Shown: positions 8,699 through 57,905 of the stretch, one piece after another | Layout: every line of letters begins with the position of its first letter | Numbering within the stretch: position 1 is the stretch's first letter | Notes under the pieces: model-generated | Databases searched by the model: none | What the model saw: only the letters and a program-made list of their open reading frames with translations | What the model was told of the DNA's origin: nothing | Translations under genes and position numbers: made by a program | NCBI GenBank assembly: GCA_023665865.1 | Contig: JAMPDC010000001.1 | Coordinates: 289,927-353,926, forward strand | Origin: Staphylococcus sp. | GTDB lineage: Bacteria; Bacteroidota; Bacteroidia; Bacteroidales; Muribaculaceae | Length of the DNA stretch: 64,000 bases | Direction: 5' to 3'

Positions 8699-11600
8699 TT
8701 ATAAAACATCCTTGCAGACAAGGCGCTCAAGTTTATCGGTCTGGCCGACGAGTTTGCCGTCGACAAGCACACGCAGACCTTTGCCCTGATGATAGCGGCT
8801 GCCATCTTTGTCCCAAATGATGCTGACGTTGTGGCCATGATAGGGCACGTTGTCGAGGCAGAACCAATCCCACTCTCCATCGGGGATGAGCGGATTGACC
8901 TCGATAGTGTTGTCGTTGCGGGGACGAAGGCCCACGAGGCCGGTGATGACGAGGTCGTTGAAAGTCGAGTGATTGTAGTAACGGCTTCGTTCCTGGTCAC
9001 CCTTGAGCCAATAGCCGGTTACCTCGTCGAGATACTCTCCGATGTAGGGACGGCCACGGTGGTGCTGCGACTCGACATAGAGCTTCATCTGAGCGAAGTA
9101 GGTGCTGTCGGTCACAGACGGATTCTCCTCAGAATTCAGATAGTTTGCAAGGGCAGTCAGAGTCTGGGCTGAAGCGAAGGGCCAGATGGCACCATCCCAT
9201 TCACACTTGCCGACGCCGTGGGTGCGAAACTCGGGATGACGACGCTCGGCAGTTGTCAGTCCGTATGGAGCTGAGAAACCTTTCTCATCGTTGAGCTGAA
9301 GCCACGCTTCGTCATATTTACCCTTGTCGGGCATGTTGAAATACCAAGGGATATAGCCTATGGCCTCGCGTACCTGAGCGAGAGTATCGCCACGCATGGT
9401 CTCGAAAAATGCGTGATCTTCATTCCAAAGCTTGCTCTGGATAAGATTTTTCAGTTCGTCAGCCTTTTTCTCATAAAGCTCCTTGTCGGCTGTTTTACCA
9501 AGCTTGTCGGCAATGGCAGCGAGAGCCTTAGCGTTGCCATACATATATGAGTTGATGGTCGGGCGCGCATATTTCTTCTTGCGTCCGCCGCTGATGCTCT
9601 CTTCCATGCCGTCCTGGACGTCGCCCTGCCAGTAGAGACCGCTTGGCAGACGATGTGTATTTTCCCAACGCGCATACTCATCCTTCAGATCGGGATAGAT
9701 CTTCGCAAGAGCGTCAATATCATTGTCGACAAGATAGCGGTTGTAGACAGCATCGGGATTCCATGAGCTGAACTTCTCCATCTTAGCCATCGGCTTTCCG
9801 TCATTTCCGTGATACCATGTATTGATGATACCGTCGAGATACTGCGGGTCACGCAACCAACGGCTTTCATAGATGTGGTGGCCGATAGCACAAGCGATGA
9901 GATTATATTTGTCCGCATAGCTGCGGTCAACGAGAAATTCAGTCATGCCATAGCCGACAGGGGTATTCTTGATATGTTTGCGGAGAGTCCACCAACGGTA
10001 GTAGTACATCTCCTCCATATCCTTGTCGGGACATTCAAAAAGAGGTATGTTGGCTTTCATCCATTCCGAAGACTCGGCGTTGGGGATTGCCTGGACTATA
10101 TTCTCATCCTCCATGCCGTTGAAATAGTCAGCATGATGGGCGAAATCGTCATATTTGAGTACGGCAGCAGTCGAATCGACATCGCGCGACGAGGTCTTGA
10201 AGTTAGCTATGCGGTAAGTAGCCTGCTTATCGACGTCGTTTGCGCGAGGCATATCGTTGTGCTGGTCTGCCTCGGTGTCTACATTGGGAAAATCTGTATG
10301 CTTACCTGTGCGGAAGACCACGCGCTCAATCTCCTTGACCGGAGCGAAGAGCATACGGGTGGCTTTCTTCTCTCCGTTGACATAGACGGTCGAGTTACGG
10401 TTGTCGAGCGTGAGGTCGACTTTCACATGATACGGTTTGCCCGGCTCATAGTTAAGAATCTTTCCATAGCGGGCGCCACCTTTGGAGCGGAACTCACCGT
10501 CGGGTGTGAGATCAAGACGGGCACATGCTGTCCCCTCATCATCGACAAACTCAATGAGCAGATCACCATATTCATTCTGGTCGGCCATAAGATCAAACTC
10601 GACTGTCAGCTCGCGCGTCGGCGGAATCTTGCGCTCCACTTTAGCCACATCAAATGGATCCTTGTCGGAAAGAGTTAGCCATGTCTTGCCATCTTTCTCC
10701 TCAAGCGACACAGGCGCCCATACCGGAGAATAGATATTCCACATATCGAGATCAGAAAGCTGCTTGAAGTCTGCAAAATCTTCATCGGCATGCGCAGTGG
10801 CCACTGTCTGAACAGGGACCGGGATACGTGCGACCCACATATCCTCTTTACCTACACTGTAGGTGACCCACAGGTCGCCATCCTCCGGAGTACCGTTGCC
10901 TTCCTGGATGCCGCGTACATATTGCGGACCAAACGATTTATACTGTCCGGCATAGCGCATCGGGGGCACTTCGCCGTGGACAAGATTGAGAGTGGTGTAG
11001 TCAAGACCGTCAGAGCTCAGAGAGATTGCAAGCGGCCAGCGGAATTCCGAGGGATTGTAGACGGTGGCATAGGTGCCGTCGCTGAGTTTCTGTCCCCAGA
11101 TCTTGGCATTGCTGTTGACAAAGCCTTTCGCTCTCTCGACAGGCTGAGCCCACGTATTGCCCCCATCCTTACTGATTGAGGTCAAGGCATGTTTCCACAG
11201 TGAGGCAATGTCACCATTGGGAAGAGTGTACCAACAGAAAGCCTTGTAGGGGTTGGAGAGCGGAAGCATCGGGTCATTCCGGTCAGCCTCCTCCACAAAC
11301 TGCATGCGGTAAAGAGGATTATCAAGGATCTCCTCGCAGGCCTGACGGAACCCCTTGTCCTTACTCAACTTATAGTTGGGATAGATGGTGTTCTTCGCGT
11401 TGAAGTCGTGGTTGTAGTAGATGAAATAGATCGGGCCGAAGGATCCGTCGGGATATATCTCACGCACCACTCGACCGATGCCATTGCCATCGTTGGGATC
11501 ATCTTTCGGATGAAGGGCTATGCCGTAGTTACCGATGGCGAGAAGGCGCCCGGATTTAGAGACATAGAACCCCACGCGTTGGTGCATGACTGCATCATGA

Positions 11601-12022
11601 CCTTTCGCCACCTGATCCACACCCTCTTTTTTAAAGCCGTCAGGCACCGGGTAGACAGGGAAAAGAATCTCGGGCGCGCTCCAGTTGTAGCCATCCTCCG
11701 AAGTCTGAAGCAGGGTGCGGCCACCTCCCACGTGCTCATCGACAGGATTGGAGAGATAGTGCATGTAGAACTTGCCGTTCCAATATGCCATCATCGGCTG
11801 ATGATTGTAAGTCCAGCCGTTTTCGTTCGGGGCATAGAGGTCATAGCGGCGATTGGCGCGCATGGTCTGGATGTTATGGACACCCACAACCGGCGACAGT
11901 GCGCCATCGTGGCGGTTGGGATTGGAAAGTTTCGTCCCGGTATAGTGAATCTTCTCCTCGGCATTCACATTAATCGCCGCAAGGCAGGTCGCCGAGATAA
12001 GAAGCAGTGATGAGAGTTTCAT
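8699..12022 (-). CDS. GH143-GH142 bifunctional Dha hydrolase / beta-L-arabinofuranosidase
   Basis: A 1107-residue exported protein (signal peptide about 1-21) with two catalytic halves. Residues 30-400 form a sialidase-like beta-propeller (repeats such as SEDGYNW and SKDGGNTW). Residues 405-615 are a concanavalin-like beta-sandwich insert. Residues 640-1060 are an (alpha/alpha)6 barrel of the MGH1-like type (HGVGKCEWDGAIWPFAS, then GEYLDEVTGYW). This is the layout of B. theta BT1020, in which the propeller is the GH143 hydrolase of 2-keto-3-deoxy-D-lyxo-heptulosaric acid (Dha) and the barrel the GH142 beta-L-arabinofuranosidase. Together they dismantle RG-II chain D (Araf-Dha). The start codon overlaps the stop of the GH43 gene by 4 bases (ATGA), so the two are translationally coupled. 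Family assignment is from recalled architecture. Confidence 0.85.
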   Translation of the reverse strand: MKLSSLLLISATCLAAINVNAEEKIHYTGTKLSNPNRHDGALSPVVGVHNIQTMRANRRYDLYAPNENGWTYNHQPMMAYWNGKFYMHYLSNPVDEHVGGGRTLLQTSEDGYNWSAPEILFPVYPVPDGFKKEGVDQVAKGHDAVMHQRVGFYVSKSGRLLAIGNYGIALHPKDDPNDGNGIGRVVREIYPDGSFGPIYFIYYNHDFNAKNTIYPNYKLSKDKGFRQACEEILDNPLYRMQFVEEADRNDPMLPLSNPYKAFCWYTLPNGDIASLWKHALTSISKDGGNTWAQPVERAKGFVNSNAKIWGQKLSDGTYATVYNPSEFRWPLAISLSSDGLDYTTLNLVHGEVPPMRYAGQYKSFGPQYVRGIQEGNGTPEDGDLWVTYSVGKEDMWVARIPVPVQTVATAHADEDFADFKQLSDLDMWNIYSPVWAPVSLEEKDGKTWLTLSDKDPFDVAKVERKIPPTRELTVEFDLMADQNEYGDLLIEFVDDEGTACARLDLTPDGEFRSKGGARYGKILNYEPGKPYHVKVDLTLDNRNSTVYVNGEKKATRMLFAPVKEIERVVFRTGKHTDFPNVDTEADQHNDMPRANDVDKQATYRIANFKTSSRDVDSTAAVLKYDDFAHHADYFNGMEDENIVQAIPNAESSEWMKANIPLFECPDKDMEEMYYYRWWTLRKHIKNTPVGYGMTEFLVDRSYADKYNLIACAIGHHIYESRWLRDPQYLDGIINTWYHGNDGKPMAKMEKFSSWNPDAVYNRYLVDNDIDALAKIYPDLKDEYARWENTHRLPSGLYWQGDVQDGMEESISGGRKKKYARPTINSYMYGNAKALAAIADKLGKTADKELYEKKADELKNLIQSKLWNEDHAFFETMRGDTLAQVREAIGYIPWYFNMPDKGKYDEAWLQLNDEKGFSAPYGLTTAERRHPEFRTHGVGKCEWDGAIWPFASAQTLTALANYLNSEENPSVTDSTYFAQMKLYVESQHHRGRPYIGEYLDEVTGYWLKGDQERSRYYNHSTFNDLVITGLVGLRPRNDNTIEVNPLIPDGEWDWFCLDNVPYHGHNVSIIWDKDGSRYHQGKGLRVLVDGKLVGQTDKLERLVCKDVL

Positions 12023-12969
12023 TTTTTGCTGGCTTCAATTAGTTTGTTAACGACTGAACGGGGTGCACGGAAAATAGTACCGTGTTTATGATCCTTAGGC
12101 ACACTGATACTGTCGGTCACGTCGGTGAAAGTCTTGAAATCTTTAGTCTTGTGAGCGCTGTAGATAAACTTGCGGTAGGTGTCGTAGTAGATATAGTAGT
12201 CATCACCCACTTTCACAACCGAGGGGCCTTCGGTAAATGACTCGGTGAAGGGCTCGGAGGCCGGACTGTAGGGGCCTTCGGCCGATTTTGCAAACGCGAC
12301 CTTGATGTTGCGGTTGGGACGGGTGTTGTCTTTCACTACCATCACATAATCCTCCGGACCGCGCTTGACAAGCACTGCATCGATGCAGCTGAATCCAGGA
12401 TCATAGAAAAGCTTGGGATCAGAGAAGGTCTCGAAATCCTTGGTGGTGACATAATAGAGACGGTGGTTATTTTTCTCGTCCTCGATGCCGACATCAAAAC
12501 CGGCGTCAACCACACATGAGGCATAGACGATCATGTATTGCCCCTTCACGTCGTCGTAGAAAAGCTCCGGAGCCCAGAGATTCTGTGTGGATGCAATGGA
12601 ATCCATCGCAGGGATGCGACGCTGCTCTGTCCAGTGGATAAGATCTTTCGAACTTGAATAGCCGAAGCCGGTGTCACCCTTCCATGCGATAGTCCATACG
12701 AGATGATAAGTGCTGTCGGGACCGACCACAATCGAAGGATCACGCATGATGTTCATGCCGAGTTCAGGTTTGAGCCATGTACCCGCGATGCTGTCCCAGT
12801 GTATGCCATCCTCACTGTAGAGGAAGCGCAGACCTTCATCGGCCGGTTCATGGAAAGAGGTGAACATATACAGATCCTCTTCAGGCTGAGTCTGAGAGGA
12901 GGATGAGCTACATGAACCGAAGCTCAATGTCAATCCGAGACTGAGGATTGCAGCTGCAAGAATTTTCAT
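12019..12969 (-). CDS. GH43-family lipoprotein, probable alpha-L-arabinofuranosidase
   Basis: A 316-residue lipoprotein with a lipobox ending at Cys20 (SFGSC), so it is probably membrane-anchored and possibly surface-exposed. The rest is a five-bladed beta-propeller of the GH43/GH-F type. The expected triad is visible: base Asp77 in MRDPSI, pKa-modulating Asp197 in CIDA and acid Glu247 in TEGPS. In pectin loci such enzymes remove alpha-L-Araf, which in RG-II would fit the single-residue chain E or a chain B terminus. The gene follows the GH78-sialidase-like fusion by 40 bases and overlaps GH143-GH142 by 4. Subfamily and exact linkage cannot be told from the sequence alone. Confidence 0.85.
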   Translation of the reverse strand: MKILAAAILSLGLTLSFGSCSSSSSQTQPEEDLYMFTSFHEPADEGLRFLYSEDGIHWDSIAGTWLKPELGMNIMRDPSIVVGPDSTYHLVWTIAWKGDTGFGYSSSKDLIHWTEQRRIPAMDSIASTQNLWAPELFYDDVKGQYMIVYASCVVDAGFDVGIEDEKNNHRLYYVTTKDFETFSDPKLFYDPGFSCIDAVLVKRGPEDYVMVVKDNTRPNRNIKVAFAKSAEGPYSPASEPFTESFTEGPSVVKVGDDYYIYYDTYRKFIYSAHKTKDFKTFTDVTDSISVPKDHKHGTIFRAPRSVVNKLIEASKK

Positions 12970-13009: not shown

Positions 13010-16000
13010 TCAAAGGTCAAGTCTGGCATATTTGATGCGCTGACGGCGCCAGGTGTAGATTGCGTGGAGCTTTCCATCCTTACCCTGGATAATGCTGGGA
13101 TAGGAATACTGGCTGACAGGGCTGTCTTCGAGCGTGACTACATTATTCCAGTTGATTCCGTCGTCCGAAACTGCGATGCAAAGCGGAGTTCTGACACCCT
13201 TGGGAGTTCCCTTAAGGGTGGCGAAATCGTTGTAGATCAACACATGACGGCCATCCTTGAGCGTCACGGCATCTGTGCCTGAATTGTTGTTTGGCAAATC
13301 AGTCAGAGTCAACGGAGTCCAGGTCTCGCCGTTGTCCGAACTCCAGCTCGTTGCGAGGTGGGAGTTGCGGGTGCGGCAGAGAATCTGCAAGCGACCGTCG
13401 GCATGGCGAAGGATGCTGGGCTGAATTGCATAGATGGGCTCCGGCTCAGTCCTGTCAGTCCTGACGGCAGAGTCTGAGGGCAGCGGACCGGTGGAGCGCC
13501 ATGTCTTACCGTTGTCATCGCTGATCTCAATCCATGCAGTCCATCCCTTACCCTCGCGGCTGCTCGGGGAGAGGATGCGTCCGTTGATATACTCAGGCTT
13601 GTTTTTGATCGGGCCGAGGATACCCTCGGGGAGCGGCTCACGCTGGCTCCAGGTCTTGCCACCATCGCTCGAACGGGCCACCCAGCCGGTCCAGTCACCG
13701 ACACTCGAACCTATCTTGAAGAATAGCAGCAATTCTTTCTCACCGGGAATCTGGAAAAGGACCGGATTCCAGCAGGCCTTGCGGCGGGCATTGTTGATAT
13801 CGCCCTTGAAATTAGGACCGACGGGCCCGGCAGTGGCAGGAGTAGTCTCCTCATTTATTCCTGAGAGACCGGCAAGCTTGATGGTTGGATCATTGAGGTC
13901 AAAGACACCGTCGGCAGCAATCTCGGGAGCAGTCCATCCGGTTGCGCCTTTAGGTTTGCGTGACACCCAGATGACACAGTCGGGGTTACGCTCCTTGGTC
14001 CCTCCGAAATAGGCCGCCACGAGATCTCCGTTGGGGAGTTCGGCGATAGTCGCACCATGACATTCGGGGAATGATGCTGTCTCGTAGATAAATTCGTCGT
14101 TGAGGATACCCTTGCGCTTGTCTCCGAGCGAGGGATCAACCTTCACATCGAAAACATAGCTGCCGGAGCCGACACGCCAATAGGAATCATTGCCCTCACT
14201 GCGGACAAACTCTGCACCCTTGGCTTTGACAGCCTTGCGGTCAGGAGTCGGGACACATATAAGAGCAGTTGTGTTGCAAGGTATCTCGATATTCCATCTG
14301 ATGTGCATGGGAGTCTTGACCCAATGGCTGACGAGCAATCCATAAGGAGTATTGTAGCTCACTCTCACACTATCCATCTGCTGGATTGAGAAATCGGGCT
14401 TGAGGAGAATCTCCTTGTAGCCGGGTTCAGCAGGATTTATACCTCCTAAATCCTGAAAATACCAGTTGATGTGATCACCGAGCATCATCACATGGTTGTT
14501 GCTGTTCATGCGGCGGCTGGCAGTGTCACCATTCCAGAGTTCCCAGATGGTAGTCGCACCCTTCTCTATCTCATAGCCATAGCTCGGATATGTGCGGTTT
14601 GAGGCCAGAAGTGCCGCCACATCACCGCGTCCGATACGCGAAAGTTCACGCATGAGCCAGTTGACACCGATGACACCGGTGGAGATATGACCTTTGTTGG
14701 TCTCAATGATTGTCTTGATAAGATTATCGGCCACGGCCTGACGATATTCCTCAGACACCATGTCAAAGGCAAGCGGCAGCACATTGGAGGTAGCGGTATT
14801 GTTGCCATAGTAAATGCTGTCGGGATAGAGAATATGGGGTGTGGTGACGGGTGAGGTACCTTTCTTGACGGTCAGGAATTCCTTGTTGAACGCATCCTTG
14901 ACTTTGTCGCCATCCTGTTCCCACTCCGCGGCCTCTTTATCAAGACCTTGGAGACGGGCGAACTTAGCCATCATCTGACACACCTTATAGTAGTAGGCCG
15001 ACGCAATGAGTTTACCGTCTGTCACGCGTGCGGGATCCTGACTATGGATAAGCTCAAGCTTTTCAGGAGGCACACACCAGTCGCCATACTTGTCGGCGGT
15101 TATGAGACCGTTCTTGTCAGTATAGTCTTTGCGGATGTGGTTCATCCACTTTTTCATAGCCTCATAGTTGCGGATGATCGGCTGAGGATTGCCGGTCTGC
15201 TCATAGATCATGTCGCATACCACCGGCAAAGTCGAAGACCAGGTCATGTCTGAGGTGAAATAGTTGTAGAACGCCGGTGCGATGTCGGGCAGACAGCCAT
15301 CCTCACGCTGCGACTCACGCATGTCGTCCATCCACTTGGCGTAGAAGTTGGCATTGTCAAACATGAAGTTCTCACCCCAGGTGTTCATATTGTGATCACC
15401 TGTCCAGGGCTGACGCTCGTCGCGCTGCGGACAGTCGACAGGCACACCCTTGTAGTTGCTCGCTGTGCCCCACCATGCGTTGCGGAAGATGGAATTCATC
15501 GTTTTGTTTGAGCTGGCGAAAGTGCCGTTTGACGGAAGATTATCATAGACAAATTCTGCTACAATATCTTCAGGCTTGAGATCATCAATACCTGTCACTT
15601 CCACAAACTGGAAACCGTGGTAGGAGAATTTCGGGCTCCAGCTGACATTCTTTTCACTTCCGTTGGCAATGTAGCGGTCGGTGCTCTGCGCGTTGCGGAG
15701 ATTCTCGACATCAAGCTGGAGACTGTCGGGAGTGATACGCTCGGAATACCTGATGACAACAGTATCGCCCGTTGCCACGTCAGAGATGTTGATCTTGACC
15801 CAACCGGCCATGTTCTGTCCGAAGTCCACGAGATAGCGGTCATCGAGTTTGCGCACAGACTTCGGGCTAAGTGTCTGCATCACCTTCATGTTGGGCGAAA
15901 GACTGCCACGCAGAGAGCCGTAAGGGAGCTCGGCGCGCTGCGCCTTCTTCCATGTCGAGTCGTCGTAGCCGGGTTTAGTCCAGTCGCCAAGCTCAAGGCG

Positions 16001-16912
16001 CGCATCATAGACCTCTCCATCATACTCATTGTTGCTGCGGATGGGGCCGTTGGCTGTCAGACGCCACTTCTCGTCGGAGTTGATGCGCTGCTTCGTTCCG
16101 TCGGCATACTCGATGATGAGATTCATGCGCAGTTTCGGATAGCCGAAAGTAGGGATCTTATAGGGTTTGAAATTCTGGCGCATGGTGTAGAAACGGCCGT
16201 TGCCGAGGGTGACACCTATTGCATTTGCCTCCCCGTTGCCCTTGAGCATATCGGTGACATCATAGGAATTATAGAGAGTGGTGCGGCGATAGTCAGTCGG
16301 TGCAGGAGCAAGCACATCCTCGCTGACTTTGTCGCCGTTGAGATAGAGCTCGTAGAGACCGAGACCTGAGATGTGAGCTGTGGCTCTCTTGATTTCTTTG
16401 TCCTGAGTGTTGAACTCCGTACGGAGATAGCGCGAGCTCATACGGCTGTGTGAGTCCTCTATATCCCATTCAAACGGGCCTTCCCAGCCGATCCACCGGC
16501 CACCCCAGTGACCTTCACCGACGATGCCCATCCCCCACTCTGCCGGAGCGCTCCATGCCGACTCGCCACGGGTGGTGTAGACTTTGACTTTCCAATAGCA
16601 ACGGGTGTTGTCGGCAAGTTCCTTACCTTCGTATGGCACCCAGACTGAAGCGTCGGAGCTGACACGCCCGGAATCCCATAGATCTCCGTTGCCGGCAGCA
16701 AGGTTTTCGGGCGAAGAGGCGACAAGTATATGATAGGCAGTCTGCATCACATCATGTTCGTCAGATGTGATGATCCAGCTCAGACGCGGATGTTGCGACT
16801 CGATGCTCAGAGGCCGTGGCTGCCCTTCAGTGGTCAGTGACCCGACCTTCACCCCGGCCCGGAGACCGAGGGCGAAGAAAAGGGATACTATTATATATGC
16901 TATGCGTTGCAT
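13010..16912 (-). CDS. GH78 alpha-L-rhamnosidase fused to a sialidase-like (BNR) beta-propeller
   Basis: A 1300-residue exported protein (signal peptide about 1-19). Residues 20-925 are a complete GH78 rhamnosidase: the N-terminal Fn3-like domain, Bac_rhamnosid_N (about 160-330), the jelly-roll with DFGQNMAGW (363-371), and the (alpha/alpha)6 barrel with DCPQRDER (493-500) and TIWELW containing Glu791. Residues 935-1300 form a second catalytic-type domain, a BNR_2/sialidase-like six-bladed propeller with four Asp boxes (SSDGGKTW 1081, SDDNGKTW 1131, SSDNGETW 1191, SDDGINW 1249). RG-II chain C is alpha-L-rhamnose on Kdo, a ulosonic acid chemically akin to sialic acid. One protein with a rhamnosidase and a sialidase fold is therefore a natural candidate to take off both sugars; that is inference. 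Alternatively the propeller is an esterase-like or binding module. Confidence 0.88.
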   Translation of the reverse strand: MQRIAYIIVSLFFALGLRAGVKVGSLTTEGQPRPLSIESQHPRLSWIITSDEHDVMQTAYHILVASSPENLAAGNGDLWDSGRVSSDASVWVPYEGKELADNTRCYWKVKVYTTRGESAWSAPAEWGMGIVGEGHWGGRWIGWEGPFEWDIEDSHSRMSSRYLRTEFNTQDKEIKRATAHISGLGLYELYLNGDKVSEDVLAPAPTDYRRTTLYNSYDVTDMLKGNGEANAIGVTLGNGRFYTMRQNFKPYKIPTFGYPKLRMNLIIEYADGTKQRINSDEKWRLTANGPIRSNNEYDGEVYDARLELGDWTKPGYDDSTWKKAQRAELPYGSLRGSLSPNMKVMQTLSPKSVRKLDDRYLVDFGQNMAGWVKINISDVATGDTVVIRYSERITPDSLQLDVENLRNAQSTDRYIANGSEKNVSWSPKFSYHGFQFVEVTGIDDLKPEDIVAEFVYDNLPSNGTFASSNKTMNSIFRNAWWGTASNYKGVPVDCPQRDERQPWTGDHNMNTWGENFMFDNANFYAKWMDDMRESQREDGCLPDIAPAFYNYFTSDMTWSSTLPVVCDMIYEQTGNPQPIIRNYEAMKKWMNHIRKDYTDKNGLITADKYGDWCVPPEKLELIHSQDPARVTDGKLIASAYYYKVCQMMAKFARLQGLDKEAAEWEQDGDKVKDAFNKEFLTVKKGTSPVTTPHILYPDSIYYGNNTATSNVLPLAFDMVSEEYRQAVADNLIKTIIETNKGHISTGVIGVNWLMRELSRIGRGDVAALLASNRTYPSYGYEIEKGATTIWELWNGDTASRRMNSNNHVMMLGDHINWYFQDLGGINPAEPGYKEILLKPDFSIQQMDSVRVSYNTPYGLLVSHWVKTPMHIRWNIEIPCNTTALICVPTPDRKAVKAKGAEFVRSEGNDSYWRVGSGSYVFDVKVDPSLGDKRKGILNDEFIYETASFPECHGATIAELPNGDLVAAYFGGTKERNPDCVIWVSRKPKGATGWTAPEIAADGVFDLNDPTIKLAGLSGINEETTPATAGPVGPNFKGDINNARRKACWNPVLFQIPGEKELLLFFKIGSSVGDWTGWVARSSDGGKTWSQREPLPEGILGPIKNKPEYINGRILSPSSREGKGWTAWIEISDDNGKTWRSTGPLPSDSAVRTDRTEPEPIYAIQPSILRHADGRLQILCRTRNSHLATSWSSDNGETWTPLTLTDLPNNNSGTDAVTLKDGRHVLIYNDFATLKGTPKGVRTPLCIAVSDDGINWNNVVTLEDSPVSQYSYPSIIQGKDGKLHAIYTWRRQRIKYARLDL

Positions 16913-16951: not shown

Positions 16952-18397
16952 TTAATAGCGGGTCGGAAGATTCTTCCAATCCTTGCCGACATAGTTCTTA
17001 TCGGAATCAACGGCGATGAGCACACGGTCGTTGCCGGCACCATGGCCACCGTCATACTGGAAGGGGGTCACCTTGCTGTCAAACTCGCCGGCATACTGGA
17101 GTTCGCCGTTGGTGGGATCATACCACCACACGTTTTTCTTCTTACCTGAAATTTTTGTAAGATCTATCTCCATCGGACGGTTTGTGTAGTTGTAGACGAG
17201 GAGATAGTCATTGCCACGGGTTGCGATGAGACGGTCGTAGCGTGTACCGTTTTCACCGGCTATTATGCTCTGGTCGGGCACACGCTCGAAGAACGGAAAA
17301 GCGAGCATGAGGTTCTTGAGATGTTTCATCTGGTTGAAACCGGGATCTTTCATGCCCTCATACCATGTTTTGGTAGCACCATAGCCACCATTGTTGGCAG
17401 GCTTGAGCATCTGCATGATGGAATTATGACCGTAGGTATGTCCGAAGGCGCCGGCAAAGACTGCCCAATATGCATAGCGACGCACATCCGGAGCTTTCCA
17501 CCAGGGCTGAGAGGGATCGTGGAGACCCTGGGGGATCTCTTCGTAGGAAGGCTCGGCATCAAAGATGGGTTTGCGTGGCTTCATGGCAAGACCGGCCTCT
17601 ACGTAGCGCCAGTTGTCCTCAGCCTGTGCAGCCTGAGCGGTGTCGTCGCCGTCGCCACGCACCTGGTCATAGCGGCGGTGTCCGCTCTGGAACATGTTGA
17701 AGTCAAGCCATTCGGCATTGTGAAACCAGTTGATCGACGATGTGCGTCCGAAGGGGTGGTAGCTCATCAGGTGATTCTTGTCGATCGACTTGATGGTACG
17801 GGCCATGGCGTTCCACTGGTCAGGATTGATGTCGCCCTTGACGTCGCCACCCATCACCCAGATGATGTTGGGAGCATCCTTATATCGCTCGGCAAGAAAC
17901 TTGCCGTAGGCCTTGGCATCGTCGACGCTCATGAGGCCGGCTTTCACCAGACCTCCCCAGATGGGCACCATGGCGATATAAATGCCATTGTTTTCAGCCT
18001 GCTTGATGATATAGTCCATGTGGTCCCAATAGCCATAGACACCTTTCTTATCAATTTCCGAGAAATCCCAGCCGTCGGGATGTGAATACTGGCCATAGAA
18101 GTTGATGGCGGGCACTCCGTTGATGGTCTGCACCTGCACTACGTTATAGCCGGCCTCACGGCAGCCATTGAGATAGTAGGAAGCCTCGCTGCGGTCAAGG
18201 CGCTCAGGCAGGAGCCAACCTGTCTCGCCCATCCAGAAGAATGGTTTGCCGTTTTCGTGCTGGAGATAGGTTCCATTGTCAGACACACGTAATTTTCCAT
18301 TTACCCACGGTTTTTCAAATGTTTGTACCGGATCCTGGGCATAGACAGCAGTCATCGCCGCAATGATGAGGCAGACAATCAGGCTAATTCTTTTCAT
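16952..18397 (-). CDS. GH140 apiosidase
   Basis: A 481-residue exported enzyme (signal peptide about 1-20, ending VYAQ). It is a TIM-barrel of the DUF4038 type followed by a small C-terminal beta-sandwich (DUF5060/DUF5605-like, from about 400). GH140 enzymes such as B. theta BT1012 cut the apiosyl-galacturonic acid linkage that joins RG-II chains A and B to the backbone. The expected acidic pair is present: Asp185 in WVMGGDVKGD and Glu282 in FDAEPSYEE. Their 97-residue spacing equals what I recall for BT1012 (D187/E284). The length is typical. It is the second gene of unit B, after GH95. Confidence 0.93.
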   Translation of the reverse strand: MKRISLIVCLIIAAMTAVYAQDPVQTFEKPWVNGKLRVSDNGTYLQHENGKPFFWMGETGWLLPERLDRSEASYYLNGCREAGYNVVQVQTINGVPAINFYGQYSHPDGWDFSEIDKKGVYGYWDHMDYIIKQAENNGIYIAMVPIWGGLVKAGLMSVDDAKAYGKFLAERYKDAPNIIWVMGGDVKGDINPDQWNAMARTIKSIDKNHLMSYHPFGRTSSINWFHNAEWLDFNMFQSGHRRYDQVRGDGDDTAQAAQAEDNWRYVEAGLAMKPRKPIFDAEPSYEEIPQGLHDPSQPWWKAPDVRRYAYWAVFAGAFGHTYGHNSIMQMLKPANNGGYGATKTWYEGMKDPGFNQMKHLKNLMLAFPFFERVPDQSIIAGENGTRYDRLIATRGNDYLLVYNYTNRPMEIDLTKISGKKKNVWWYDPTNGELQYAGEFDSKVTPFQYDGGHGAGNDRVLIAVDSDKNYVGKDWKNLPTRY

Positions 18398-35364: not shown

Positions 35365-38640
<3,276 letters not shown>

Positions 38641-38662: not shown

Positions 38663-41600
38663 TTACTGCACTTCGAGCGAATCGAAGGCCACTCCGGTAA
38701 GGTCATCACCTGTGATAACCACCTTATAGGTACCGGCATTGATATAGCCGCCGGTGGTAGTGCTCACCATACGCCATTTTTCGGGAGTGTCAGGCAGATT
38801 GATGGTATCATCCTTGAGGATGCTGCCGTTGGGGGCCACCAGTTTGAGATTGACGGGTACAGGATGTCCCGATGTGTTCATGAATTTGAAGCGGAGAGCA
38901 TAGACCTGTGCAAGACCGGTCGAGATTGTCCACTCGACACTACCCTTGCCGGAGAAGAACACTCCGGTCTGCTTTTTGAACTCCTTGACAATATGCTTAC
39001 CCACACATTTTGCATCCTCTGCCTGATAGTTGACAGCCTCACGTGCATTCTCATCTTTAGGAAGCATATCGGCAGGCATCTTCTCGACTATATTCCGATC
39101 GGCTGCGGCCCAACTCCAGTCTGAGACCGGAAGAGGGATGTCAGTTTTCACATTGTTGTCCGTTGACGCTACGGCAATAGCCGAGAGCAACGCCTGACCG
39201 GCCTTTACCTCGGGAAAATCAATGGTGAGGACACCGCCGGTGACGTCACATTCGACCACCTTTTTTAGCAGACGGTCATGTCCGGCCTCAGCCCAGATGT
39301 CGAGATCGTCGATGACTGTCGAGTCGTTGATGGCAACATCGAAGATGCGGAGACCCTCGCAGTCGGTACCCTCTCCCCCACCGGTGCCATGCCAAGGTTC
39401 GATGAAGTAGAGCTCGACGCGATAGCGGCCATCGGGTACGGGAAGGCTATATGAGAGCTTGTGGCGGCCGAAACGGAAGTTCTGCATTAATGACCAGTCG
39501 TTTGTACCGGCAATAGGATCATGGGTGACACGCTGGCTTGCGAGATAGGGCGAAAGGCCTTTGAAATCCTGAGCCCACGAGCGGGAATAGGTAGTGTCGT
39601 CCTTCAGCCACTTCTGTCCGAATTCATCGACATACTCATCACCGCCACAGTTGATGCGATAGATATAGTCATAGCCGTCAGCACCTTTGAGGGCTGTGCT
39701 TCCGGGAGTCTTCAACGCTGCGAATCCGGGAGCCTCAGGAAGATTATCGAGGACAATGACATCCTCGGCTACAGGACGCCCCTCATGATAGGCCACCGCA
39801 CGGAGCACGTTGGCCTTCACCGGAGCATTTTCCCAGGTGAAATGAGTGCCGATCCCACCCTTGACACGCATACCAAGCGGATTGGCTTCAAGAGCATCGT
39901 TGTAGAGCTTGACTGAATCACAGTTGCTGTAGACCTCGATGGTAGCCTCGCAGGGAGCCGTGAAACGGCCGGGCCATGTGTGTGACGCGATGTAGACAAA
40001 GGGATCCTTGGCAGCATCTGTGTAATTGCTCTTATACATATAATATACGTCGGCAGGCTCTTCCCACGGACTGACAAGACCTTTGTAGTTGAAGGGACCA
40101 ACCTTGTCAATCATGCGGTAAGCTTCGTCGGGTTGACGGCGGCCGGGATTATCATGACTGCTGAAGATCCACTGGAAATGACCGCAGACACTATCGGCCG
40201 CTTGCTCTGCAAGACGAACCTTGGCTTCCATCAGCTGGGTCATGCGCTCCTCGCTCCAAGGGCCGTTGGGCTGGAAGTCACCGGGTTCGGTATGGAAATC
40301 GAGTGTGCGCCAGGCGCCATACTCTCCGTTCAGCAACTGATTTGGCCGTGCCAATTCCTTATCATAACTATAGAGATCTCCTCCGTATGTACCGCTCCAG
40401 TTCTGGATGACATTCCAGTCAGTACCCTCTCCACCATTGCACGTAGTGATGACACGCATGTCGCGCGCCATTGGATCCATCTCGCGGATGATGTCAGCAC
40501 ACTCCTGAGCAAACTCTCGCGGCAGCGTGCTCTCATTCTGCAAACCCCACATGACCACCGAGGGCGAATTGCGGCGCTCTTTGACCCACTGGCGCAGAAG
40601 TGTCTTGAAATTCTCACGGAATTCCGGGGTGTCATACCATACATGTGCCGAGAACTGGGGCCAGAACAGCACACCCTCCTTGTCCCAATAGTCCTGATAG
40701 CGCAGATTATGAGGCTGATGGGCATCGCGGACAGCATTGAAGCCGGCATTTTTTATCTGCTTGACACGCGCTTCGACCTGCTCATCGCTGAAAGCATGCG
40801 ATGCACCGAACTGATGCTCATATTCACAGACTCCATTGATAAACACAGGCTCGCCGTTGATGAAGAAGCGGCCGTCGCCATCGTTGCGCTTCACCGGCCA
40901 GCTGAAATTACGAATACCGTAGGGAGTTGTCACCTCTTCAGTTGTCTTGCCATTGCGTTTGACCATGGTCGCAAGCTTGTAGAGATAGGGAGAAGCCGGA
41001 CTCCATAGCTCCGGTTTATCCACCGGCGAGGCCTGACGGATCACTCTCGTCTCACCGGGATTTAACGTAAGTTTATCTGACAGACGAAACACCTGACGGC
41101 CATCGGCATTGCTGAATTTATTGACAAAATCAATCTCCGCGGCCTTTTCGCCATAGTTTTTAAGTTCGGTCTCGACAAAGACTGTGTCACAAGCAGCGTT
41201 GTTCCAGATATGCACGCCGAAAGGCTCGACGCGGACCTCGTCAGTGATCTCAAGTCCGACAGGACGGTAGATGCCAAGCGGCTGCGAACCCTCGCTGAAT
41301 CCCCATTCCGACGAGCAACCGCCACACACCCAAGGCATATCGGCAATCATTTCCGGATGCTCTGCCGTGATCTCAAGGCGATTGCCGCCTCCGAAGTTGA
41401 GATAGTCAGTGACATCGAAAGTCAGAGATGTACGTCCCGAAGGATGACGGCCGAGGTCATGACCGTTGACCTTGATGTTGGCATAAGTACCTATTCCCTC
41501 AAAGTTGATGAAATAACGCTTTCCGTCGACACGCTCAGGAGTGGTGAACTCACGGATATATGTGGCATTACCGTGAAGATTGCCGTGGGTCAACTGACGG

Positions 41601-42838
41601 TAACCATAATAATCGTCCCAGTTGTGGGGAACATTGACGGTGATGGCCGACGCCCTATCGTCGCCGAGCCATGTGGTCCAACCCTCATTCAGGCTGATAT
41701 TGGTGCGGCGGCCGGTTGCGGGACGCTCGGGGAAACGCACCGCTGAGCGGCCCAGCGGCTTGCTTGTAGCCACTGCTATGCCGCGCTGGTCAGCATTGTT
41801 GACAGCACAATAGAAATGATAGACGACTCCATCGTGCTTCACAAGATAGCTCTTGTGGGCAAACAGTTCGTCGTATTGTTTGCTCGGATAGATAAGGTCG
41901 TCCCCCTCCCAGTCGTCCCATGTCACGAGGTCATAGCTACACGCAAAGGTATTGAATGCCTTGTAGGGGCGCGAGGGATTGAAAGCCGAGAAGTAGAACA
42001 TCACATAGAGGTCGCCCATCCTGACAATCTGGGCATCGCCGGTGATCGTGCCCTGTGCTTCGTGAGTGAAGACTGGATTTCCCGCATAGCGGCGCCATTT
42101 CTTCATATCGTTTGACAGGGCGATGCCGATGCGCTCACCCTTCATGCCGTTTTCAGGATTGATACCACCGGCGTTGTAATACATGATAAACGGTGCTCCC
42201 AACGTCTTGCCGGGATCCTCATAGACAGTGCTCTTGTATTGGGTGAGAGATTCCCACCACTGCACGTCCTTGTCGTTGATCGAAAGGATCGGGCGGTCAA
42301 GCGACTCCCATTCATGGGCTGTCCCGGGATTTCCTTTGGTCCATGCGAGACCGACATAGAGCGGAGCGTTGACAGCCTCATAGCCTGTGCCCTCTCCGCC
42401 GATATAAGTCATCCAGCATTTCCCCTTATAGCGGTTGATGGCATAGCTGCCACCCCAGGTCATATCGATCAGTCCGGGGAAACCGCCGCGCTGATTGCGG
42501 TCCCAACCACTGTCCTTATACGACAAGATGCGCCCGAGGGTCTTCCACTCAAGCAGATTGTCGCTCTCGGCAAGCCATGTCTCATAGCCACGGCCATCCT
42601 GACCGCTGCGTCCGTTGTAGACCACGTAGGTCATATACCATTTGTCACCTTCGCGGAACACGGTCGGGCAATCAATCTTGTGCTTGTTGTCCTCGGGGGC
42701 AACCACAAGACCATATTTATATGGTGTACGTGACTCACGATATACATCTGCCATCCGCTCCTGACTGACATGACGCTGCGCGGCGACAGCCGACCACGAC
42801 AGCAGAGCGAGTGAAATTAGTGAAAACAGTCGTTTCAT
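38663..42838 (-). CDS. GH137 beta-L-arabinofuranosidase fused to GH2 beta-glucuronidase
   Basis: A 1391-residue exported protein (signal peptide 1-20). Residues 30-370 form a five-bladed propeller matching GH137 (PTVFREGDKWYMTYV, then FPGLIDMTWGG). Residues 380-1040 form a full GH2 enzyme with acid/base Glu769 (GLQNES) and nucleophile Glu839 (LLNGEYGAW). A malectin-like domain (about 1055-1230, YRINCGGDEY) and a C-terminal CBM6/CBM35-like sandwich (1280-1391) follow. This is the layout of B. theta BT0996, which joins the chain B beta-L-arabinofuranosidase (GH137) with the chain A beta-glucuronidase (GH2). A hairpin stands 15 bases before its start codon. Confidence 0.9.
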   Translation of the reverse strand: MKRLFSLISLALLSWSAVAAQRHVSQERMADVYRESRTPYKYGLVVAPEDNKHKIDCPTVFREGDKWYMTYVVYNGRSGQDGRGYETWLAESDNLLEWKTLGRILSYKDSGWDRNQRGGFPGLIDMTWGGSYAINRYKGKCWMTYIGGEGTGYEAVNAPLYVGLAWTKGNPGTAHEWESLDRPILSINDKDVQWWESLTQYKSTVYEDPGKTLGAPFIMYYNAGGINPENGMKGERIGIALSNDMKKWRRYAGNPVFTHEAQGTITGDAQIVRMGDLYVMFYFSAFNPSRPYKAFNTFACSYDLVTWDDWEGDDLIYPSKQYDELFAHKSYLVKHDGVVYHFYCAVNNADQRGIAVATSKPLGRSAVRFPERPATGRRTNISLNEGWTTWLGDDRASAITVNVPHNWDDYYGYRQLTHGNLHGNATYIREFTTPERVDGKRYFINFEGIGTYANIKVNGHDLGRHPSGRTSLTFDVTDYLNFGGGNRLEITAEHPEMIADMPWVCGGCSSEWGFSEGSQPLGIYRPVGLEITDEVRVEPFGVHIWNNAACDTVFVETELKNYGEKAAEIDFVNKFSNADGRQVFRLSDKLTLNPGETRVIRQASPVDKPELWSPASPYLYKLATMVKRNGKTTEEVTTPYGIRNFSWPVKRNDGDGRFFINGEPVFINGVCEYEHQFGASHAFSDEQVEARVKQIKNAGFNAVRDAHQPHNLRYQDYWDKEGVLFWPQFSAHVWYDTPEFRENFKTLLRQWVKERRNSPSVVMWGLQNESTLPREFAQECADIIREMDPMARDMRVITTCNGGEGTDWNVIQNWSGTYGGDLYSYDKELARPNQLLNGEYGAWRTLDFHTEPGDFQPNGPWSEERMTQLMEAKVRLAEQAADSVCGHFQWIFSSHDNPGRRQPDEAYRMIDKVGPFNYKGLVSPWEEPADVYYMYKSNYTDAAKDPFVYIASHTWPGRFTAPCEATIEVYSNCDSVKLYNDALEANPLGMRVKGGIGTHFTWENAPVKANVLRAVAYHEGRPVAEDVIVLDNLPEAPGFAALKTPGSTALKGADGYDYIYRINCGGDEYVDEFGQKWLKDDTTYSRSWAQDFKGLSPYLASQRVTHDPIAGTNDWSLMQNFRFGRHKLSYSLPVPDGRYRVELYFIEPWHGTGGGEGTDCEGLRIFDVAINDSTVIDDLDIWAEAGHDRLLKKVVECDVTGGVLTIDFPEVKAGQALLSAIAVASTDNNVKTDIPLPVSDWSWAAADRNIVEKMPADMLPKDENAREAVNYQAEDAKCVGKHIVKEFKKQTGVFFSGKGSVEWTISTGLAQVYALRFKFMNTSGHPVPVNLKLVAPNGSILKDDTINLPDTPEKWRMVSTTTGGYINAGTYKVVITGDDLTGVAFDSLEVQ

Positions 42839-42932: not shown

Positions 42933-45632
42933 TTAATAGAATAGCCAGTCCATAGCCTCGTCTTCTCCGGCAAGAGCGGCATTGCGGGGCTTGACATCGT
43001 CGGTAGTGAATCCGAGCAGCAACAGATAGCCCTTGGGGAGCATCAGCTTGTGCTCGCCCGGCTTGAAGTTGTAGGCGTGGATGTTGGCGAGAGGCATGCC
43101 ATCGAGATGTATGGCATTGGTGAGCAGTGGTTCTGCCTGACCATATTCCGAGGCAGAGGCGTCGGTTTCCAGTTTGGGAGCCTTGGCATATTTCTTCTGG
43201 TCATCCTTGAAGTAGCCTACAAGGAGTTTGACCGGCTCCGAGCACGAAAACTCAATCTCTGTGCCCTCCTTGCGCTGGATGTCGCCATTGACCGTGAAAG
43301 CCGTGAGATTCTGTAGCTCAGGAGCCAGACCTTTGACCTTGGCGGCAGGCATATTCTCAAGGATTTTCGCACCGTCGGTGAGTTTGGTCACACCCCACAG
43401 TCCCTTGACTTTTACAACACTGTTGAGCGCATCCTTAGCAGCCGGAATAGTCTCATCTTTGTCCGAGATCTTACCGGCAGCCTTGTCTTTGAGTGTTGCA
43501 AGGTTGTTTTTGAAATTGTCGAGCTCTGCCTGATAATGCACAAGCATCTCCTCCCAAGTCTTGTTCTTTCCGCCATCACCGGCTATTGGGATGCGGCGCA
43601 TAGAGGTCTGCATACTGTTGGCATAGAGATAGGTTCCCTTGGTGCGGTCGACAAGCTGCTTGTAGTAGTCAAGACTCTCCTCCATCAGGGGCACAGCGGC
43701 GTCGAGATATTTAAGGTCTTTGGTCCACTGGTAGTTGAGCACCTCACGGGCGGCCTTGACCTTGCGGTCAAATGCATAAGCAAAGAGACGGTAACAGTTC
43801 ATGTCATTGACAAGGCGTTTGAACTCGTCGCTGTTGGCGTTCACTTTGCTGATGCTTTCGATCGCAGCCACAGCTTTGTCGCCATGTTCGACACACTGGG
43901 CAGTGATATCAAGAGGAAGCTCGCCTACATGCGGCTCACCTTTATATTCTTTCTCGACAAATTCAATGAGTTTCTCACCCTCTGGGCCGCAGCTTTCGTA
44001 GAAACCGGGATAGATGGTGTATTTATAGGGATTGACAAACTGGCTCATGAACATTCCGAGCAAAAGAGTCTGGCGGTTACCTTCGGTGATACCGAAACGG
44101 CGGAGCAGTTTGGGCGCGATCTCACCCGACTCCTCAAAAGCCGTACGGATAGCCGCGCCCTGTTCATCATCCAGTCCATAGGTGCGGGCAAAACGATGGT
44201 TCCAGTATTTCATTTCATCCTCACGGTCACGGCGGCAGTTCCAGGCATATCTGCCCCACCCTTCATACCAGGTGCTGTCGCGCACGAGCTGTAATTCACG
44301 CTGACCGCCTGCAATGCTGTCGGCTGAATAGGGCCAATCCCAGTAAGAAGCCTGAGGATAAAGATGGAGGGCATTAGCGCCGTGGACATCGTGCATCGCC
44401 TTGACAGCTTTCTGTGTAAAATCCGGAGAACTCCAACGCCATGGTTCAAGATTGGCGAGGATATGCACATTGCTTATATGCACACTGCCGAGTGAGCTGA
44501 GGCCACGGTGGATTTCAGTCCATGGGCCACGCGGCTCATAGGTGGTCAGTGACTCACCATTATACTTGTGCATCGTATAGAGATTCTTGTAAAGAGGCAG
44601 GGCAGCATCCATCACCATCTTGCAGTCAGTGTCGTGGGCACGCAAGAGCAATGGAGGCTCGTCAGTGCGGCCAAGCTTTGCGAGGCCATCCTTGACTCCG
44701 GGGATGATAGTCTCGGTAAACCAGACCACATCGTCCTCGTATGTATCCATAGCCTCACCGAGACAGACAAGCAGACCGACGTTGGGATATTTCTCGATAA
44801 AAGCGGCCACGCTCTTGCGGGTATAGTCGCTGACGAGCGGTGTGATAGGACGGTTGCGGTCCTGGGTCTTCAGTCCATAGTGCTCGGCAAAAGGTTTGGA
44901 GAGAAGAATGTTGTAGAACATCTGGATGACGAAGATACCACGCTTGTCAGCCTCGGTGGTCAGAAATGAGAACATCTCCTCGTTCTTCTTGAAAGTCTCA
45001 TCGTCGACCTCGACTGCGAAAGGATAGTCCTCAAGTTTGACAAGCGAAGCAAACGGATGACCGTTCCAAAGATAGAGCGAGTTCATGCGGTTGGCCACAA
45101 GCATGTCAAGATATTTTATCCAGAGATCCTTGTCATAAAACCAAGGGAAATTCTCAGGCGTATAGGGATACTCATAAACGCTGCGGCCCGGAAGCAGATA
45201 GGGCTTCTGGACACCGACACAGGCACCACGCAGCACCATCTCAGGTGCATCAGTAAACGTCGGGGGGAGCTTGTCGAGACTTCCATCCATCTCGACGCGG
45301 TCAAGGAGCTCGCGGCAACCGTAGATCACACCCGAACCATCATTGCCGATGACGTCAATGACTCCGTCGGCCACATTGATGGTAAATCCCTCCTTTGGCC
45401 CGACACTGTCGGTAGCCTGCGAGAGACGTATCTGCTGCACACCTTCGGGTGCTTCGCCGGTCAAAACCTCGTAGCCCTTTGCCTCAAGACCTGATTTGAG
45501 ATGCTCGACAGCAAACTGCATGCGGTTGGAGCCATCTTCGGGATATTGCAAGGCCACTTTAGGCTTGCTCGCGCAACTCCAGACGACAGCAGCTATAACA
45601 GCGATGTATATATATTTCAGAACTGACTTCAT
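42933..45632 (-). CDS. GH138 alpha-D-galacturonidase, lipoprotein
   Basis: An 899-residue lipoprotein with lipobox Cys20 (VWSC). Residues 25-135 form an alpha/beta domain of the type that precedes GH67/GH20/GH115 barrels, and a TIM barrel follows (about 140-520; NRMNSLYLWNGHPF, GLLVCLGEAMD, YPQASYWDWPYS). A helical domain (520-720) and a C-terminal beta-domain complete it. GH138 was founded on B. theta BT0997, an RG-II alpha-galacturonidase of chain A encoded next to BT0996, the same neighbour found here. The ATG overlaps the stop of the preceding GH78 gene by 4 bases (ATGA). GH115 was considered; the context and the N-terminal arrangement favour GH138. Confidence 0.88.
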   Translation of the reverse strand: MKSVLKYIYIAVIAAVVWSCASKPKVALQYPEDGSNRMQFAVEHLKSGLEAKGYEVLTGEAPEGVQQIRLSQATDSVGPKEGFTINVADGVIDVIGNDGSGVIYGCRELLDRVEMDGSLDKLPPTFTDAPEMVLRGACVGVQKPYLLPGRSVYEYPYTPENFPWFYDKDLWIKYLDMLVANRMNSLYLWNGHPFASLVKLEDYPFAVEVDDETFKKNEEMFSFLTTEADKRGIFVIQMFYNILLSKPFAEHYGLKTQDRNRPITPLVSDYTRKSVAAFIEKYPNVGLLVCLGEAMDTYEDDVVWFTETIIPGVKDGLAKLGRTDEPPLLLRAHDTDCKMVMDAALPLYKNLYTMHKYNGESLTTYEPRGPWTEIHRGLSSLGSVHISNVHILANLEPWRWSSPDFTQKAVKAMHDVHGANALHLYPQASYWDWPYSADSIAGGQRELQLVRDSTWYEGWGRYAWNCRRDREDEMKYWNHRFARTYGLDDEQGAAIRTAFEESGEIAPKLLRRFGITEGNRQTLLLGMFMSQFVNPYKYTIYPGFYESCGPEGEKLIEFVEKEYKGEPHVGELPLDITAQCVEHGDKAVAAIESISKVNANSDEFKRLVNDMNCYRLFAYAFDRKVKAAREVLNYQWTKDLKYLDAAVPLMEESLDYYKQLVDRTKGTYLYANSMQTSMRRIPIAGDGGKNKTWEEMLVHYQAELDNFKNNLATLKDKAAGKISDKDETIPAAKDALNSVVKVKGLWGVTKLTDGAKILENMPAAKVKGLAPELQNLTAFTVNGDIQRKEGTEIEFSCSEPVKLLVGYFKDDQKKYAKAPKLETDASASEYGQAEPLLTNAIHLDGMPLANIHAYNFKPGEHKLMLPKGYLLLLGFTTDDVKPRNAALAGEDEAMDWLFY

Positions 45633-49662: not shown

Positions 49663-49701
49663 GGTTTTCTTTCTACTGTAGTGATATGATGGTGGGGAGA
49701 A

Positions 49702-53402: not shown

Positions 53403-54145
53403 TGATACTTGAAGTCTGTTGCGGCGATCTCGACAGCGTGCTTGCGGCCAAGGCAGCCGGTGCGCAACGTATCGAACTTTGCAGCGCTCTCTCGGAAGGT
53501 GGGCTTACCCCGTCGTTGGGCCTCATCGCGGCGGCTGTTGCCGCCGGCATCCCTACCCTCCATGTCCTCATCCGTCCGCGCAACGGTGATTTCCTCTACA
53601 GCGATGCAGAGGTCGACATGATGGTGCGCGATATCACGCATGCCATCCAGGCCGGAGCTGACGGAGTGGTCATCGGCGCTCTGACGCCCGATGGAGATAT
53701 CGACATCACGGCTTGCAGCCGAATGATCGAAGCCGCCCAAGGCCGGTCGGTCACCTTTCATAGGGCATTTGATCTCTGCCGCGAGCCTGAGACTGCTCTT
53801 GAGGCAATCATCAATCTCGGATGTGATCGCATCCTGACCTCCGGACTCGCACCTACCGCGGCTGCCGGAGCTGTGACCTTGCGTCGCCTCAACCAACTCG
53901 CCGGCGGACGCATCACCATCCTTCCCGGAGGTGGCATCAATGCCTCCAATGCCCCTGAGATACTCCGGAACTGCAATCTCACCGAAGTCCACGCCTCGGC
54001 CAAAAAGAATCTGCCCAGTGCGATGCGTTTCAGACGCGATTCCGTAAGCATGGGCACTCCGGAGGCCGACGAATATACCCGCCAGGTTACAGACAAAGAT
54101 AACGTAGCCTCTATTTTAGCAGCCATCAATCAGACACAACCATGA
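53402..54145 (+). CDS. cutC: CutC family protein
   Basis: A 247-residue cytoplasmic TIM-barrel protein without a signal peptide. It has the family pattern from the first residues (MILEVCCGDLDSVLAA, RIELCSALSEGGLTPS) and FHRAFD, ILTSG and LPGGGINASN further on. CutC was named for copper homeostasis, but its direct part in copper handling in bacteria is doubtful, and no copper gene lies nearby. It is translationally coupled on both sides: TGATG with the fucosidase (1-base overlap) and ATGA with the transglutaminase-like gene (4-base overlap). Confidence 0.93.
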   Translation: MILEVCCGDLDSVLAAKAAGAQRIELCSALSEGGLTPSLGLIAAAVAAGIPTLHVLIRPRNGDFLYSDAEVDMMVRDITHAIQAGADGVVIGALTPDGDIDITACSRMIEAAQGRSVTFHRAFDLCREPETALEAIINLGCDRILTSGLAPTAAAGAVTLRRLNQLAGGRITILPGGGINASNAPEILRNCNLTEVHASAKKNLPSAMRFRRDSVSMGTPEADEYTRQVTDKDNVASILAAINQTQP

Positions 54146-56757: not shown

Positions 56758-56763
56758 TTTTCT

Positions 56764-57804: not shown

Positions 57805-57820
57805 CACCTATGGTGCTGAA

Positions 57821-57860: not shown

Positions 57861-57905
57861 CTCAACAGTTTACGCGGCAGTTGGAGGACAATTCAACCGC
57901 CGTTT

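Follow-up and report, generated by a model that had tools for sequence, protein, structure and literature searches.

In rhamnogalacturonan II (RG-II), rhamnose (Rha) on 3-deoxy-D-manno-oct-2-ulosonic acid (Kdo) makes up side chain C, which is attached to the backbone (PMC12282258). A Kdo hydrolase, placed in GH33, is named among the enzymes needed for RG-II in the relevant passage of PMC11214529, and the pectin polysaccharide utilisation locus (PUL) 2 of Bacteroides xylanisolvens XB1A (BXY_06320-06540) is described as containing GH28, GH33, GH43, GH78 and PL1 (PMC4769552). Since these sources name a GH33 Kdo hydrolase and list a PUL with GH33 and GH78, the idea of a Kdo-removing GH33-type enzyme for RG-II is not new. 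Another RG-II rhamnosidase, BT1001, has been assigned to Rha on apiose (Rha-Api) (PMC7939467). Here we describe a protein encoded in a stretch of 64,000 nucleotides from a Muribaculaceae genome (contig JAMPDC010000001.1; the whole stretch is referred to as the window), in which a GH78 rhamnosidase is fused to a sialidase-like propeller. Judging from its residues, relatives and gene surroundings, this fusion is likely to be a two-headed exo-enzyme for RG-II chain C that combines a pair of activities, rhamnosidase and Kdo hydrolase. Its parts are:

13010..16912, minus strand: GH78-BNR_2 fusion protein, open frame with an ATG start, 1300 aa
14219..16840, minus strand: GH78 alpha-L-rhamnosidase half, residues 25-898, putative catalytic Glu E499 and E791 (Pfam and alignments)
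13010..14110, minus strand: sialidase-like BNR_2 propeller half, residues 935-1300, with H952, E974, Q1164, R1180, R1241 and Y1269/Y1271
Residues 25-130 of the fusion protein: Ig_Rha78A_N (Pfam)
Residues 172-345 of the fusion protein: Bac_rhamnosid_N (Pfam)
Residues 357-456 of the fusion protein: Bac_rhamnosid (Pfam)
Residues 462-820 of the fusion protein: Bac_rhamnosid6H (Pfam, E 3.3e-108)
Residues 824-898 of the fusion protein: Bac_rhamnosid_C (Pfam)
Residues 962-1283 of the fusion protein: BNR_2 (PF13088; Pfam, E 1.3e-83)

The first-pass annotation of this DNA had described a GH78 enzyme joined in frame to a propeller with four Asp boxes. The in-frame fusion is borne out by the open frame and by Pfam domains in both halves, PF13088 scoring 281 bits against a gathering cut-off of 31.4, while the count of four boxes holds loosely: three fit the strict Asp-box pattern (1081, 1131, 1191) and the fourth (1248, VSDDGINW) is degenerate. 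The N-terminus, judged by eye, is signal-peptide-like. The GH78 domain set is complete, six-hairpin catalytic domain included, and this half matches the structures 6i60 and 3w5m; E499 and E791 align with E636 and E895 of 3w5m, which we take to be the general acid and base Glu of GH78. By this alignment, the GH78 half is predicted to be a rhamnosidase with an intact catalytic Glu pair.

The fusion is common in relatives of the source bacterium. A scan of a genome collection gave at least 595 candidate stretches and at least 585 confirmed loci, and among the best 80 of the latter, all from other genomes, GH78 and BNR lie in one frame in 65. They occupy separate frames in six, where the frames of one locus (L034) overlap, a possible frameshift, and the GH78 of another (L078) is itself split over two frames; the remaining nine have no such GH78, the match sitting at the sequence edge in two (L041 and L086). 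Bacteroides finegoldii has the same fusion, with 58.5% identity across the whole length, and in Rufibacter the two halves are adjacent genes. A chance fusion or assembly accident is ruled out by the recurrence of the one-frame form and by the full-length B. finegoldii homologue. In a midpoint-rooted GH78 tree of 44 rows, with fused rows subsampled to 24, the BNR-paired GH78 domains, fused and separate-frame alike, form one clade (100/100) apart from that of the other GH78 of the window; the pairing therefore holds without fusion. Strict RG-II markers (GH140, GH142, GH143, GH138, GH137-GH2 or GH141, at no less than 45% identity and in flanks of up to 10 kb) accompany 68 of the 80 loci. The GH143-GH142 fusion of the window has its two parts in separate, adjoining frames in two loci (L066, 2762-6171; L072, 836-4273). 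One record, L011 (JAMPHR010000001.1), titled as a Paenibacillus sp. metagenome-assembled genome, contains an RG-II block of Muribaculaceae type whose genes are each 73-92% identical to those of the window, and is probably a mislabelled or mixed bin.

The same linkage is seen across whole genomes. Of 60 genomes sampled across the order, nine have a match to the BNR profile (E 1e-20), and in three the match exceeds 500 bits; these are exactly the three with a full-score GH138, all of which also hold a close GH143; in two of them the BNR frames are long and open (1313 and 1542 aa). A fourth, more distant GH143 occurs without BNR in G022, and the GH138 matches of G014 and G042 lie far under the cut-off. 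In a family sample of 69 genomes, BNR was found in three, identical with the three having full-score GH138, and all three have open frames of 1306-1316 aa, that is, fused by frame length.

In regard to the propeller, its site was compared with those of GH33 sialidases (domain numbering plus 934 gives protein numbering). A profile built from 51 BNR domains, when aligned to NanB, places R246, Q230 and Y337 on NanB R557, E541 and Y653, which we take to be catalytic residues. Comparison with a profile of four Bacteroidales sialidases (alignment A5) places E40 on the acid/base Asp, Q230 on the Glu, R246 and R307 on two arginines, and Y335, not Y337, on the catalytic Tyr; the alignment of E40 (E974) with the Asp sits in a loop beside a gap. 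In a global alignment, H18 (H952) falls on the arginine of the sialidase RIP motif. We prefer Y1271 (Y337) over Y1269 as the putative catalytic Tyr, because Y337 is kept outside the RG-II clade, where Y335 mostly is not, and because it stands at a fitting distance from the next strand, with no gap between. H952, E974, Q1164, R1180, R1241, Y1269 and Y1271 are identical in 47 of 47 aligned sequences (alignment A3: the sequence of the window plus those of 46 loci that we chose from the 80). The second and third sialidase arginines (R1180, R1241) and the Tyr are thus kept; the three-arginine carboxylate clamp of GH33 is incomplete, with His in the first position in all 47, the acid/base position holds Glu in place of Asp, and the position of the Glu that pairs with the Tyr is Q1164 in both alignments. 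The site is sialidase-derived, intact as a pattern and altered at three of six places. The first-pass annotation had staked its reading on the catalytic residues not all being absent, and two Arg and the Tyr are indeed present; of the families it had named, the propeller belongs with BNR_2 and is closer over its full length to GH33 than to GH143, which matches its last third only.

From this pattern and the RG-II setting we infer the following course of events. The substrate would be alpha-L-Rha-(1,5)-alpha-Kdo-(2,3)-GalA (GalA, galacturonic acid) of side chain C, from which the GH78 half would take the terminal rhamnose first, by the GH78 Glu/Glu mechanism, and the BNR_2 half would next remove the Kdo laid bare. 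R1180 and R1241, with H952 replacing the first arginine, would hold the C1 carboxylate, Y1271 could serve as the nucleophile and E974 as the acid/base, and an invariant lysine cluster (K1066, K1103, K1105) may bind backbone GalA carboxylates. Removal of rhamnose and then Kdo from chain C was the proposal of the first-pass annotation; the setting, the gene context of the Kdo assignment, the invariant altered pocket and, thinly, the cassettes of distant relatives described below speak for it, whereas the homology it drew on needs qualifying.

The window holds 19 consecutive minus-strand genes (4572-51789), 15 of which have a glycoside hydrolase match: GH78, GH143-GH142, GH43, the fusion, GH140, GH95, three GH2 genes, GH106, GH137-GH2, GH138, a 3cih-like rhamnosidase, GH141 and GH127. 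Of the four others, one encodes a SASA esterase, one a DUF5703 protein and one a TSP3-repeat protein, and the fourth has no Pfam match. Because GH140, GH137-GH2, GH138, GH141, GH127, GH106, GH95 and GH143-GH142 all occur in it, the block is read from its gene content as an RG-II degradation set; block content, genome samples and flanking markers agree in linking the fusion to RG-II-specific genes. The neighbours are:

4572-5912, minus strand: protein without a Pfam match at E 1e-5, 446 aa
5915..8674, minus strand: second GH78, of a clade distinct from the fused GH78
8699..12022, minus strand: GH143-GH142 protein (BT_1020-like; chain D)
12019..12969, minus strand: GH43 neighbour
16952..18397, minus strand: GH140-type apiosidase (PF13204)
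21113-22735, minus strand: TSP3-repeat protein, 540 aa, no other Pfam match
25439-27724, minus strand: DUF5703_N protein, 761 aa, inside the RG-II block
38663..42838, minus strand: GH137-GH2 protein, RG-II marker (NF049877, 2528 bits against a cut-off of 1800)
42933..45632, minus strand: GH138 alpha-galacturonidase, RG-II marker (NF049878, 1405 bits against a cut-off of 1300)
45629..47830, minus strand: rhamnosidase, Bac_rhamnosid-like_N, nearest PDB entry 3cih, presumably BT1001-like
47839..51789, minus strand: GH141 and GH127 genes

The GH143-GH142 protein, said in the first-pass annotation to be the following gene, is present, but GH43 comes directly next on the operon strand and GH143-GH142 after it. 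SusC/SusD gave no match by Pfam among 18 of the 19 block genes, the one at 35365-38619 having been scanned by NCBIfam only. The genome has two BNR_2 sites, the propeller of the fusion and a weak one within GH143. The product of 4572-5912 is a homologue of part of a longer B. finegoldii protein (locus L001) annotated DUF3826, and the B. finegoldii homologue (55%; L001, 19947-21686) of the TSP3-repeat protein is annotated as a polysaccharide lyase. Outside the block, 54142-60076 encodes a transglutaminase-core protein followed by proteins of 346 and 769 aa without a Pfam match (E 1e-5).

Relatives of the propeller also occur far from RG-II loci. By tblastn, 304 plasmid records match the domain, and 24 loci outside the fused clade, picked by us for spread, were fetched; no GH78 partner was seen in their frames, and the BNR frame of L008 continues into another repeat domain. 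H18, E40 and R246 are present in 24/24 and R307 and Y337 in 23/24, the exception, L119, being a broken gene. A tree made without L119 separates two deep groups (100/99). The group of the window has mostly K132, K169-N170-K171, E186, Q230 and D280, and the other mostly T132, R and Q in the second motif, P186, H230 and Q or A280, with the second-motif columns differing between the two alignments made. The exact 12-residue signature of the window is found in eight of the 24 loci. L111, L116 and L124 are intermediates, and L116 has Q230 yet groups on the H230 side.

The two groups differ in their neighbours. PdxA2 or tetronate kinase genes were found by tblastn in 12/14 H230 loci and 0/10 Q230 loci (Fisher p 7e-5, kinship ignored), a split made less clean by an annotated four-carbon acid sugar kinase in a Q230 locus (L005), missed by tblastn; a DHDPS-family aldolase is present in 12/14 against 4/10. 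Twelve loci (L113, L118, L119, L120, L121, L122, L123, L125, L126, L127, L130, L131) have BNR_2 beside a DHDPS-family aldolase, an iron-containing alcohol dehydrogenase (Fe-ADH) and PdxA2, often with a four-carbon acid sugar kinase; their hosts are Proteobacteria, many plant-associated, and eight of the 12 BNR_2 genes are annotated exo-alpha-sialidase or sialidase family. These H230-side cassettes are candidates for a pathway of 3-deoxy-D-lyxo-hept-2-ulosaric acid (Dha), a C7 ulosaric acid. Cleavage of such an acid would yield pyruvate together with a C4 acid aldehyde, which fits the genes present: the aldolase would release pyruvate and a C4 semialdehyde, Fe-ADH would convert the latter to a tetronate such as threonate, and tetronate kinase and PdxA2 would follow. 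The H230 hosts include rhizobia, agrobacteria, Pantoea and Azospirillum, and a description of an H230-type C7-acid pathway was not found in the open-licence literature.

Two Q230 loci show another arrangement. In L007 (5723-10990, a Klebsiella plasmid) and L117 (1716-11142, a Proteus record), an FGGY pentulose kinase gene is followed in turn by those for an isomerase-like protein, a DHDPS-family aldolase, BNR_2, a transporter and a LacI-type regulator. The kinase exceeds the TIGR01315 cut-off in both, and both BNR proteins carry the identical signature of the window. The isomerase-like protein of L117 weakly resembles the C-terminal part of L-fucose isomerase (PF02952, at 28 bits slightly short of the cut-off), that of L007 has no Pfam match at E 1e-5, and proteins related at 43-47% identity bear the annotation fucose isomerase. 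D-arabinose is a substrate of L-fucose isomerases. Aldolases of the N-acetylneuraminate lyase (NAL) type form Kdo from pyruvate and D-arabinose (PMC4016182), and the reverse reaction would therefore feed the isomerase and kinase, which makes these two loci candidate Kdo utilisation cassettes.

Beside these stand a few side observations. A 1.7-kb record labelled Escherichia phage (L128; OR845728.1, 558-1589) encodes a BNR_2 protein that shares 58% identity with that of Klebsiella, and is probably bacterial contamination of a phage assembly; DNA searches of complete E. coli genomes with this gene (megablast) and with that of L117 gave no match, and a scan of viral contigs with the L117 protein found no relative. 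A control E. coli genome has a BNR_2 (PF13088) match over the Pfam cut-off.

Several observations weigh against a chain C enzyme that removes Kdo. In G006, one of the three RG-II genomes of the order sample, the BNR lies in a frame of 499 aa, so a complete fusion is not seen, and weaker BNR matches (209-411 bits, frames of 212-377 aa) occur in 6/60 order genomes without a full-score GH138; the fold alone is therefore no sign of RG-II. Twelve of the 80 loci lack a strict marker, seven of them being shorter than 15 kb. Half of the six sialidase catalytic positions are replaced (Arg1 by His, the acid/base Asp by Glu, Glu by Gln). The C5 cassette is found in just 2/10 Q230-type distant loci, and those two are interrelated (58-77% identity per gene); the signature of the window also occurs in six further distant loci without it, and in L132 the kinase and isomerase-like genes stand among other enzymes, with no BNR gene. 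In the flanks of 84 RG-II-type loci, a pentulose kinase or isomerase-like gene was found in none, and a DHDPS_I-like gene in four. Finally, the rhamnose that the GH78 half would take was arrived at by elimination.

An alternative, if an unlikely one, is that the BNR_2 half cuts Dha or a uronic acid from RG-II instead of Kdo. GH143 is the Dha enzyme, and 103 C-terminal columns of the propeller align with its profile (hhalign E 4e-8), the last third sharing an R-x-P-L...S-x-DG stretch; in addition, the sister H230 group sits with C4-acid genes suiting Dha, and Fe-ADH and PdxA2 relatives occur together in 6/84 RG-II-type loci. The similarity to GH143 does not extend over the full length, a forced global alignment being meaningless before the 103 columns, and PF24067, the BT_1020-type N-terminal propeller, has no match in the fusion protein at E 0.01. 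Membership of GH143 is ruled out, as the C-terminal third alone aligns; the analogy with the GH143 half drawn in the first-pass annotation therefore stands for setting and fold class but not for family. A profile comparison of GH143 with sialidases gave no useful match, and a parallel drawn by eye between a GH143 His (YNHxPM) and H952 was unconfirmed by profile alignment and not used. Against Dha as the substrate, a GH143 for it is already present in the operon of the window and in the flanks of 14/80 loci, the pocket of the window domain is of the other signature type (KNK/E/Q/D), and the domain is fused to a rhamnosidase, whereas Dha bears arabinofuranose (PMC12282258).

The loss of the sialidase Arg1, Asp and Glu could also mean that the propeller has no catalytic activity and serves to bind carbohydrate, docking the rhamnosidase on RG-II; yet the replacements are invariant, two Arg and the Tyr persist, and separate-frame and distant loci have the domain as a gene of its own, so we regard this as quite improbable. 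A beta-propeller lyase or His-dependent rhamnosidase, like those of the families PL24, PL25 and GH145, is suggested by the invariant His and Tyr at catalytic positions. It seems very improbable: no lyase is found among 60 of the 78 solved chains listed, and the order of His, Tyr and Arg is unlike that of the PL25 set, neither being a direct test. A true GH33 sialidase, to which the near-full-length profile matches to the four Bacteroidales sialidases (E 9.6e-9 and 1.1e-10) point, is the least credible, since the incomplete Arg triad and the replaced acid/base Asp and Glu rule out a canonical sialidase identity.

Extending the Kdo hydrolase reading of the propeller, we tentatively suggest, at somewhat less than even chance, that BNR_2 proteins with the H/E/R/R/Y core, often named exo-alpha-sialidase, are not sialidases and make up a broad family of glycosidases acting on 3-deoxy-2-ulosonic acids, whose pocket tells two substrate classes apart: Q230 for Kdo and H230 for a C7 acid, most likely Dha. 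The new part of our work is this residue-based split into two groups with its substrate and catabolic prediction, which was not found in the open-licence literature. Many proteins named exo-alpha-sialidase, among the 304 matching plasmid records, may accordingly be Kdo or Dha glycosidases; if true, the pocket rule would correct a common misannotation and show how soil and plant bacteria use Kdo/Dha-type sugars. The fusion itself offers a single testable enzyme for chain C.

In relation to known systems, CAZy presumably lists Kdo hydrolase under GH33. The B. finegoldii locus holds GH140, GH78-BNR, SDR, patatin, DUF3826, GH28, GH78, GH65-type, GH43, DUF3826 and polysaccharide lyase genes, an order that we take to be that of BT1012-BT1023 of Bacteroides thetaiotaomicron; on this gene order, the orthologue of the fusion in the RG-II set of that species, which is not among the best 80 loci, would probably be BT1013. 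A text search of the open-licence literature for BT1013 returned no RG-II paper.

Like the window, B. xylanisolvens XB1A carries the fused GH78-BNR, in a locus of the same strain (L018) whose content suggests that it is PUL 2, for which the passages of PMC4769552 describing it give no Kdo activity. The GH33 sialidases (NanB, 2vw0, and the Bacteroidales set) share with the propeller the fold family, Asp boxes, Arg2, Arg3 and Tyr, and differ at the three positions that hold His, Glu and Gln in the propeller. The GH143 Dha hydrolase BT_1020 (presumably structure 5mqr) shares the RG-II ulosonic acid context, and the propeller aligns with it over the C-terminal third, without PF24067. The GH78 rhamnosidases 6i60 and 3w5m share the GH78 domains and both putative catalytic Glu residues, and the protein of the window differs from them by its C-terminal BNR_2 propeller.

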